43,385 nucleotides of DNA from the NCBI GenBank assembly GCA_017461225.1, contig JAFTYV010000037.1:1-43385 (forward strand), written 5' to 3'. Below the pieces are notes generated by a model. That model was not told where the DNA came from, did no database searches, and saw only the letters and a program-made list of their open reading frames with translations. Position 1 is the stretch's first letter. Each line of letters begins with the position of its first letter. This stretch comes from Candidatus Methanomethylophilaceae archaeon. Its GTDB lineage: Archaea; Thermoplasmatota; Thermoplasmata; Methanomassiliicoccales; Methanomethylophilaceae. This document shows, in pieces, positions 21,638 to 32,148 of the stretch. The position numbers and the translations under genes were made by a program.

Positions 21638-22876
21638 TCACTGTTCTACGATACCGTATCCGATGAGTCTCCACTTGTTGGAGATCCTTCTGGAGATGGC
21701 GACCCTCTGCCCGGGCAGGATACACACGGGGATCTTGAGGGTGACCTCGGCTGAGTCGTTCCTCGCGCTCTTGACGACACCGACGGTTGTGGCGGTACCG
21801 ACGCTGAGCATGAGGGGCTCGTTGCTCTTGATATCCTCAACGGAGAGTTCCGCGGAAGAACCTACGACACGGTCGAGCAGGGTGGTCCTCATCCTGAAGT
21901 CGTGGGCGACCTGGGGGAGCTCACCGGGGACACCGATGACCCTTCCGGTCAGACCGTCGGACTTCGTGATGGAGGCGTCGAGACCAGTTCCGATGGCGAT
22001 GAGACCACCGGGGAGGACCTCCTTGACGCTCTTGCCGCCCGCCTCGAGGGAGGTCACCTGTGCGGTGATCCTCTCGTACGTGACCTTGCCCGCGACCTCG
22101 ACCTTCCTACCGGGGGAGATCTCGATCTCGTCACCGACCCTGAGGGTACCCTGGATGAGGGTACCTCCCAGCACACCGCCCTTGAGTTCCTGGGGCTTCG
22201 CACCGGGGGAGTTGATGTCGAAGGAACGGGCCACGTGCATCAGCGGGGATGCGTCGGGGTTCCTCTTGACCTTGGAGACGATGTGGTCCTCGATTGCCTC
22301 GATGAGCATATCGATGTTGACCCCGCGGTTGGCGGAGATGGGGATGATCGGGGCGTTCTCCGCGATCGTTCCCTTCACGAACTCCTTGATCTGCTTGTAG
22401 TTCTCTATTGCCTGCTCTCTGCTGACGATGTCGATCTTGTTCTGGACGATGATGATGTTCTCGATACCGATGATCGAGAGCGCCATCAGATGCTCCTTCG
22501 TCTGGGGCTGGGGACACTTCTCGTTCGCCGCCACGAGGAGCAGCGCACCGTCCATGAGGGCCGCTCCGGAGAGCATGGTGGCCATCAGGGTCTCGTGTCC
22601 GGGGGCATCGACGAAGGATACCGCCCTGAGGAACTCGGCGTCCGCACCGCAGCTCCTGCACTTCTTCTGAGTGCCGAACGCGGCGGGCCCCTGGCATTCG
22701 GGGCACTTGTAGAACGCGACATCTGCGTACCCGAGACGAATGGAGATGCCTCTCTTCAACTCCTCGGAGTGACGGTCCGTCCACTCGCCGGAAAGCGCCT
22801 TGGTGAGGGTCGTCTTCCCGTGGTCGACGTGACCGATCATCCCGATGTTGATCTCGGGCTGCTTCGGGACTTTCAT
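21638..22876 (-). CDS. eif2g: Translation initiation factor 2, gamma subunit
   Basis: GTPase subunit of aIF2 (412 residues), which carries initiator Met-tRNA to the small ribosomal subunit. G motifs are [10 protein letters not shown] (about 15-24), DAPGHE (about 94-99) and NKID (about 150). Between them is the archaeal/eukaryal zinc knuckle with CPECQGPA and KKCRSCG (about 58-77). The beta-barrel domains follow ([20 protein letters not shown]). ATG 22876 overlaps the last base of the S6e stop codon. Confidence 0.98.
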
Positions 22877-30104: not shown

Positions 30105-30578
30105 TCAGCAGCTGCGGAGGATCTCGTCCACCGCCTGGGAGAAGGAACGCTCCGGACCGACCCTGACGGTGCCGCATCCGAGACGCCTGCCGAACTCCAT
30201 GTCCTTGTCGTGGTCGCCCACCATGAACGACCTGCTGGGGTCGATGTGGTGCCTCGCCACGGCGGTCAGACCCATCCCGATCTCGGGTTTCCTGCATCCG
30301 CAGCGGTCCTCCGGGGTGTGGGGGCAGAAGATCATGTCGTCTATGCGTCCGCCGCCCGCCTCCACGGTGCGGACGAGCTTGTCGTGTATGGCCGCCAGGG
30401 CCCCCTCGTCGAAGTACCCGCGCCCCAGTCCGGACTGGTTGGTGACGACCACGACCTTGAAACCGGCCCCGTTCAGGCGGGCGATGGCCCCCGGCACATC
30501 CGGGTACACCTCGAAGAGGTCCGGGTCGCTGCAGTACGGCACGTCCTTCGCTACGGTGTCGTCGCGGTCGATGAACAC
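30105..30578 (-). CDS. gmhB: D-glycero-manno-heptose bisphosphate phosphatase GmhB-like (in frame after gmhA TAG)
   Basis: HAD-family phosphatase with the GmhB/HisB-type zinc loop FCPHTPEDRCGCRKPEIGMG and the catalytic start FIDRDDTV. It removes the 7-phosphate from heptose-1,7-bisphosphate. Starting at GTG 30578 gives 157 residues beginning MFIDRDD, missing residues of the first beta strand that homologs have (usually KAVFLDRD). The preceding codons, read in frame, are ATG TTC GGC CAC TAG GCG, so the complete strand HxAVFIDRDD is restored only if the TAG is decoded. The stop is TGA. Confidence 0.85.
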   Translation of the reverse strand: MFIDRDDTVAKDVPYCSDPDLFEVYPDVPGAIARLNGAGFKVVVVTNQSGLGRGYFDEGALAAIHDKLVRTVEAGGGRIDDMIFCPHTPEDRCGCRKPEIGMGLTAVARHHIDPSRSFMVGDHDKDMEFGRRLGCGTVRVGPERSFSQAVDEILRSC

Positions 30579-30581
30579 CGC

Positions 30582-30584
30582 CTA
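30582..30584 (-). other. In-frame amber codon joining gmhA and gmhB
   Basis: The codon after the gmhA His is TAG, and the next codons GCG GTG TTC ATC GAC CGC GAC continue directly into GmhB in the same frame. It is the only TAG stop that I found among about fifty genes. Decoding as pyrrolysine would give a 344-residue GmhA-GmhB polypeptide, with the residue in the place where GmhB homologs often have Lys. Lys AAG and TAG differ by one base. Confidence 0.6.
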
Positions 30585-31139
30585 GTGGCCGAACATCTCC
30601 CTCTCGACGATGCCGCATATGGTGTGGCAGGCGCAGAGGTACGCCTCCTGGATGCGGGGCGTCTCCGTGGACGGGATGACGACGGCACAGTCGGCCATGT
30701 CCTTCATGACCCCTCCGCTGCCCGTGAAGGACATCGTGTACGCGCCCCTCTCCTTCGCGGCCTCCATCGCGAGGACGACGTTGCGGGAGTTCCCGGATGT
30801 GGACAGTCCCACCACCACGTCCCCCTTCCTGCAGTTGGCCTCGATCTGCCTCTTGAAGACGAGGTCGTAGCAGTAGTCGTTGCCGATCGCGGTGACCGGC
30901 GCTATGTTGGACAGGCATATGCTCGCCATCGCGGGACGGTCGAACATGTACTTGCCGGAGAACTCGGCGGCGATGTGCTGGGCGTCCGCGGACGATCCCC
31001 CGTTGCCCATGAAGATTATCTGCCCCCCGTTCCTGAGGGACTCCAGGATCAGGTCGGCCGCCGCCCTGATCTGTGCGGGGTCGATGTTGGAGATTGTCTC
31101 CGCGCTCCTCCTCAACTCGGCAGTGATAGACTCAATCAT
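30582..31139 (-). CDS. gmhA: Phosphoheptose isomerase
   Basis: SIS-domain isomerase of 185 residues converting sedoheptulose-7-phosphate to D-glycero-D-manno-heptose-7-phosphate. The sugar-phosphate site is seen in GNGGSSADAQHIAAEFSGKY (about 45-64) and LSTSGNSRNVVLAMEAAK (about 111-128), with the C-terminal helix IQEAYLCACHTICGIVEREM holding the conserved His. Length matches the family, so it is complete at the TAG. The start ATG overlaps the hddA stop by eight bases. gmhB follows in the same frame after the TAG. Confidence 0.92.
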   Translation of the reverse strand: MIESITAELRRSAETISNIDPAQIRAAADLILESLRNGGQIIFMGNGGSSADAQHIAAEFSGKYMFDRPAMASICLSNIAPVTAIGNDYCYDLVFKRQIEANCRKGDVVVGLSTSGNSRNVVLAMEAAKERGAYTMSFTGSGGVMKDMADCAVVIPSTETPRIQEAYLCACHTICGIVEREMFGH

Positions 31140-32148
31140 TTGGATACCTCCAGGAGATCACGCCCCTGGGCTCGAACATGTAGTCAGTGATCCTCGCACC
31201 GAGCTTCTGGAGCTCCTGCGCGACGCTGTACTTGCGGTCGTATCTGCATATGAAGTACATGAACCCCCCGCCACCGGCACCGGAGACCTTGCCACCGATG
31301 GCACCGGCCGCCTTGGCCGCCTCGTAGAAGGCGTCTATCTGGGGGTTGGAGATCTTGTTGGAGAACTGCTTCTTGTACTGCCAGGAGAGGTCCAGCAGCT
31401 CGCCCGCCTTGGTGATGTTGCCCCTCTCGAGTGCGGAGGACATCTCGAACGCCAGCTTCCTCGACTCGTCCAGCGCCTCCTCGTTCTGACCGCTCTTGAA
31501 GGAGTCCACCTGGCTCTCTATGATCTTCGCGGACTCGCGTGGGGAGCCGGTGTAGCACAGGAGGGAGCAGTACTGCAGCTCGTTGATGGTGTCCTCGGAT
31601 ATCCTGACGCGGTTGACGTCGACGCCGGACTCGGCGAACTTCATGAGGTTGAACCCCCCGAAGACGGCCGCGTACTGGTCCTGCTTCCCGCCCTTCAGGC
31701 CGATCTCCTCGCGCTCGAGGCGGTACGCCAGCTGGGCCATCTCGGACCCCGTCATCTTGATGCCGAGCCACTCGCATGTGGCGGCGATTATCGACACCAT
31801 GACCGTGGACGATCCCCCGAGACCCGAACCGGGGGGTGCCTCGGACTGCAGGAACAGCCTGAAGCCGTCCTTGATCTCGAAGTGGTTGGTGACGGCCTTG
31901 ATCAGGTCCATGTTCCCGTCCAGCGGGAGCGGCCCCCCGTCGAGGGGCGCCTCGTACTTCCCGTAGTCGGTGGAGTGGACGGACATCGAGTGGTCGCCCG
32001 TGGGCGTTATCGTGCAGTAGGCGTACCTGTTTATCGTGGTGTTGAAAACGGCTCCGCCCTTCTTCGACGCGTACGGATCCACGTCCGTACCCCCTCCGGC
32101 CAAACCTATCCTGAGGGGTGCCCTGGCCCTGTAGTGAATCCCATCCAT
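31132..32148 (-). CDS. hddA: D-glycero-alpha-D-manno-heptose-7-phosphate kinase (HddA-like)
   Basis: GHMP kinase of 338 residues with APLRIGLAGGGTDVDPYASK at the N-terminus, the phosphate loop PPGSGLGGSSTVMVSII (about 108-124) and the C-terminal SGAGGGGFMYFIC. This is the pattern of HddA, which makes heptose-1,7-bisphosphate in the GDP-heptose route; a related sugar kinase is possible. hddA, gmhA and gmhB follow the order of pathway steps in one operon. A TATA-like CTATATA (32224-32230) lies about 75 bases upstream. Confidence 0.88.
   Translation of the reverse strand: MDGIHYRARAPLRIGLAGGGTDVDPYASKKGGAVFNTTINRYAYCTITPTGDHSMSVHSTDYGKYEAPLDGGPLPLDGNMDLIKAVTNHFEIKDGFRLFLQSEAPPGSGLGGSSTVMVSIIAATCEWLGIKMTGSEMAQLAYRLEREEIGLKGGKQDQYAAVFGGFNLMKFAESGVDVNRVRISEDTINELQYCSLLCYTGSPRESAKIIESQVDSFKSGQNEEALDESRKLAFEMSSALERGNITKAGELLDLSWQYKKQFSNKISNPQIDAFYEAAKAAGAIGGKVSGAGGGGFMYFICRYDRKYSVAQELQKLGARITDYMFEPRGVISWRYPND

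Follow-up and report, generated by a model that had tools for sequence, protein, structure and literature searches.

An archaeal code that assigns pyrrolysine to every TAG codon has reportedly been described by Kivenson and colleagues in 2025. In Candidatus Methanomethylophilus alvus, pyrrolysine was predicted in proteins outside the methylamine methyltransferases, and the use of TAG as a stop was 1.6% (PMC4153887). According to the citing passage in that source, an archaeal tRNA-His guanylyltransferase contains pyrrolysine, and neutral evolution was proposed for it (Heinemann 2009, cited in PMC4153887). Rare codons that are conserved at specific positions have also been described (PMC5438181). 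The present analysis concerns a gmhA-gmhB-like reading frame interrupted by a TAG codon in a 43,385-nucleotide stretch of DNA (the window; contig JAFTYV010000037.1) from a Candidatus Methanomethylophilaceae archaeon, a methanogen of the gut type; its draft genome is designated G000.

The locus belongs to the same order as Ca. M. alvus and resembles the cases reported there, with an in-frame TAG in a housekeeping gene that has TAG-free homologs and with very low TAG-stop use; unlike those cases, GmhA-GmhB is absent from the table of 20 proteins in that study (PMC4153887), and here TAG lies exactly at a domain joint and is common to two distant species. The tRNA-His guanylyltransferase, as presented in the citing source, likewise has its pyrrolysine outside methyltransferase active sites, but it is a different enzyme, whereas here the codon joins two enzymes. 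The monomethylamine methyltransferase MtmB depends on the same decoding machinery and has an in-frame TAG in G000 too; pyrrolysine is catalytic in MtmB, whereas it would occupy a hinge position in GmhA-GmhB. TAG use in G000 resembles the code attributed to Kivenson and colleagues, but pylB of G000 still appears to end at TAG. As in the rare-codon cases (PMC5438181), a rare codon is conserved at a fixed position, but here it is a single codon, CGA, exactly between two domains, with TAG instead in two species. No publication on an archaeal GmhA-GmhB fusion came up in the literature searches. Pyrrolysine outside the methylamine methyltransferases is already predicted in the order, and GmhA-GmhB adds another such protein.

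The TAG codon at the gmhA-gmhB joint

The preliminary description of the window had read gmhA and gmhB as one frame broken by TAG alone and without a spacer, which was confirmed on the minus strand from 31139 to 30105. The joint sequence is ATG TTC GGC CAC TAG GCG GTG TTC ATC GAC, and the fused frame reads ...GIVEREMFGH-TAG-AVFIDRDDT..., with TAG as the sole internal stop and the terminal TGA at 30107-30105. Translation of the frame gave the 344 residues that had been expected if TAG is decoded, with the joint at residue 186. Solved GmhA chains aligned up to residues 180-186 and solved GmhB-type phosphatases from residues 185-187; the two parts are therefore fused without a linker. In an AlphaFold model (5-sequence alignment; mean predicted local distance difference test, pLDDT, 81; predicted template modelling score, pTM, 0.70), residue 186 lies between a helix (160-183) and a strand (187-191). 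The statement that GmhB read from the GTG lacks its first strand was too strong, as a start at this codon (188) would, according to the model, remove the first residue of the strand together with everything before it. The TAG had also been noted as the only TAG stop of the region, and only 1 of the 47 genes called in the window ends in TAG.

From the frame, homology, decoding machinery, codon use and conservation we infer that the TAG at the joint is translated as pyrrolysine in one bifunctional protein, with a probability of roughly 0.88; the efficiency of this incorporation is likewise a prediction. The proposal, already made in the preliminary description, was supported by the homologs, the pyl genes, the TAG of mtmB, the scarcity of TAG stops and a second genome, G007, that lacks the restart codon. 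A GmhA-like isomerase would be followed directly, with no intervening linker, by a GmhB-like phosphatase, the joint codon would have become TAG in the G000 species and in G007, and the ordinary Pyl-tRNA machinery would translate it. Pyrrolysine would then replace the Lys or Arg of the relatives at a short hinge, and the phosphatase would thereby be made dependent on the pyrrolysine supply. A catalytic role of the joint pyrrolysine is unlikely.

Among the 31 genomes of the genus, 20 carried the unbroken protein, 2 the joint TAG (G000 and G007) and 3 split genes, and 6 gave no match. Other genera of the family also carry the fusion, which is inherited from the family ancestor. Alignment of the homologs showed an unbroken frame with Lys or Arg at the TAG column. 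The earlier remark that many homologs have Lys there held for the other genera, where the residue is mostly Lys (AAA or AAG), and Candidatus Methanoplasma relatives have Lys; it did not hold within the genus, where a CGA codon for Arg stands in nearly every case. The codon of the 20 unbroken genes was CGA in 17, AGA in 1 and AAG in 1, and in the one remaining gene CGA lay one codon earlier; the earlier position was seen in G022 and in three g7 genomes. A TAG in G058 was considered as a joint TAG and rejected, as it is the terminal stop of the gene.

G007 is a different species with pylS and has TAG at the same codon. The gene tree groups G007 with G000 (support 89/85), and this grouping spans a long divergence. 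After the TAG, G007 reads GCG TGT TTC, and its first start codon occurs 56 codons later, downstream of the DxD and TNQSG motifs; with no start for 55 codons, stop and restart could therefore not make the catalytic part. The TAG common to G007, which has no restart codon, is a clear genetic argument for decoding. The motifs of the GmhB part are kept in the TAG lineages, and the ratio of nonsynonymous divergence (dN) between the GmhB and GmhA parts was 1.78, compared with 1.86 +/- 0.68 in intact relatives; judged by its sequence, this GmhB part is intact and evolves under the usual constraint. Because the tree does not resolve the base of the genus, TAG may have arisen by a single change in AAG (Lys) or by three changes in CGA. 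Replacing Lys with pyrrolysine is a mild change in chemistry, which makes it plausible that the joint TAG arose neutrally.

The genes pylS, pylB, pylC and pylD of G000 all scored over their profile cut-offs. A pylT-like sequence with the anticodon CTA is situated between mtmB and pylS and forms one cluster with the pyl genes; it was recognised by eye, its acceptor pairing was checked by hand, and it was not reported by ARAGORN or Rfam in G000. The pyrrolysine genes on which the earlier proposal depends are present in the same genome, and mtmB of G000 has its diagnostic in-frame TAG.

Stop codons were counted in sampled stretches amounting to 597 kb of G000 (39% of the genome), in which 565 called genes with a stop ended in TGA (509), TAA (48) or TAG (8). 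Six of the eight TAG-ended calls run on in the coding frame (gmhAB, mtmB, a UvrA-like gene, GatE, an IS1634 transposase and a small protein). The other two are pylB and one doubtful call, giving at most 2/565 true TAG stops, while intergenic triplet frequencies predict about 18.5% (~105 of 565). G000 has nearly given up TAG as a stop. Standard gene calling splits TAG-joined proteins such as GmhA-GmhB in two, and with decoding of the joint the few pyrrolysine-dependent proteins outside methylamine metabolism would come to include a bifunctional enzyme.

Alternative readings and the rare CGA codon

Several observations weigh against decoding as pyrrolysine. The release factor aRF1 is present in G000 and could compete for TAG, and the GTG two codons after the TAG leaves a restart formally possible. 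TAG-ended genes were more frequent in G007 (32/242, from a noisy call that includes several sense codons and was not relied on) than in G000, and G007 may read TAG both ways. The GmhA part scored 175.7 bits with TIGR00441, under the NCBIfam equivalog cut-off of 209.45, and the GmhB part 150.5 bits with NF006506, under the cut-off of 178. A simple stop and restart, with GmhA ending at the TAG and GmhB starting at GTG 30578, would make use of the GTG directly downstream in G000, and overlapping starts are used by three split-gene relatives, G011 (L024), G015 (L031) and G016 (L032). In these, an extra T at the joint creates a TAA that ends gmhA, and gmhB follows in the next frame from an overlapping ATG or TTG. 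However, their GmhB starts several residues further upstream (MxSKAVF), G000 hardly ever uses TAG as a stop, and G007 keeps the TAG with TGT in place of the GTG, which makes this reading very improbable. A sequencing error or a decaying gene is hardly credible; G000 is a draft of 64 contigs, but a second species has the identical TAG, and the GmhB part is intact.

An unlikely but more serious alternative is a leaky joint, at which TAG would be read as pyrrolysine part-time to give GmhA alone and some fusion, and at which CGA, a single substitution away from TGA and rarer than any other codon, would act similarly in the relatives by pausing or weak termination. CGA stands at the joint in 17/18 Arg-bearing genomes of the genus, or one codon earlier in the four genomes mentioned, despite a share of about 0.1% of Arg codons and an inner use of 0.04-0.07% (in G004, 8 of about 11,200 Arg codons over 920 kb; in G000, 4/9,423). 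The three genomes with TAA at the joint codon and the single CGA kept by aRF1 at alternative sites also favour leakiness. On the other hand, the fusion is made without a rare codon in other genera, which use Lys codons, and in the two genomes of the genus that have AAG or AGA. The tRNA-Arg(TCG) is present and looks normal, for which reason CGA was also rejected as an unreadable codon. The excess of CGA in the last ten codons of genes was not counted as a sign of weak termination, because TTA shares it and it is a general rare-codon effect.

In 100 kb of G010, 823 Arg codons were counted, and CGA was found once, at the joint. An inner CGA common to both orthologs was found in one case in 264 G004-G000 pairs, in aRF1. 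The aRF1 gene (G000 C29:20467-21681; loci L095, L096, L194-L213, L254-L273) has one very rare CGA near its 5' end, at either of two sites according to genus. The CGA lies at 'SIA[AS]R-LK' in 18/19 genomes of the genus (CGC in G007) and at '[YF]R-G[RK]GT' in 6/6 g7, 3/3 g9 and 2/2 g14 genomes, all of which have another codon at the first site; these counts omit genomes where the search motif failed. Simple binomial figures overstate the conservation because the genomes are related. The CGA positions at the joint and in aRF1 look as if they are held by selection. TAG thus takes the place of a codon that is very rare and yet retained by the relatives, and the gmhA-gmhB joint may accordingly be slow or leaky. 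No conserved RNA structure was found at the joint (alifold z +1.55 against column shuffles). A wider proposal, somewhat more doubtful than the leaky joint, assigns CGA in this family a function as a weak codon that acts as a partial stop or causes a programmed pause. Genes would avoid it internally, and selection would retain it at the joint and once near the aRF1 start, where autoregulation could result; in the two species with TAG, one leaky codon would have been exchanged for another, and the ratio of GmhA to fusion would stay fixed. The conserved CGA at the joint and in aRF1 raises a testable question on the use of very rare codons in these archaea. Beside decoding as pyrrolysine, the keeping of a very rare codon at the joint and in the release-factor gene is the most interesting remaining part.

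Enzyme identity and further TAG-bearing genes

In the known pathway, GmhA is followed by HddA and then by GmhB. The GmhA part scored over the cut-off of the SIS_2 domain, and the GmhB part matched the HAD-IIIA and histidinol-phosphatase-domain models. The catalytic motif of the GmhB part (DxDGT type; window 30558-30569) keeps both Asp and reads DRDD for DRDG throughout the genus. The overlapping HddA-like neighbour (Table 1) suggests that the fused gene serves the GDP-heptose route. The substrate is a putative one, because GmhA, HddA and GmhB all scored under their equivalog cut-offs and DRDD replaces DRDG.

Table 1. Positions of the gmhA-gmhB-like frame, its parts and its neighbour in the window.
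Feature	Position	Strand	Remarks
gmhA-gmhB-like fused reading frame	30105..31139	minus	344 residues if TAG is read as pyrrolysine; ends in TGA; unbroken in 20 other genomes of the genus
GmhA-like SIS isomerase part	30585..31139	minus	residues 1-185; alignment with solved GmhA chains extends to residue 180-186
In-frame TAG	30584-30582	minus	residue 186; boundary of last SIS helix and first HAD strand; same codon in G007
GmhB-like HAD-IIIA phosphatase part	30105..30581	minus	residues 187-344; DRDD, TNQSG, Cys-rich zinc-loop pattern and GD motif
GTG, candidate restart codon	30578-30576	minus	TGT at that codon in G007
Internal ATG upstream of TAG	30596-30594	minus	CTC, CTG or ATA instead in several relatives
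HddA-like heptose 7-phosphate kinase	31132..32148	minus	best family NF049969, under the curated cut-off; 3' end overlaps start of fused gene by 8 bases

Further TAG codons were observed in G000. An isochorismatase-family protein (C37:14499-15083), obtained by a gene call with TAG as sense, has TAG inside its Pfam domain. The UvrA-like gene (C1:50853-53348) has an in-frame TAG, and GatE, a subunit of the Glu-tRNA(Gln) amidotransferase (C4:16174-18021), has one close to its end. The small protein belongs to an adjoining pair of paralogs (C32:21731-22162 and 22315-22722) with TAG at an equivalent place (RYRYE-TAG-YLYGPYS); neither had a Pfam match, and the second copy was found by the gene call with TAG as sense. 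The apparent end of pylB (C45:24785-25840) is a TAG right before the TTG start of pylC, and reading past it would add 20 residues that overlap pylC.
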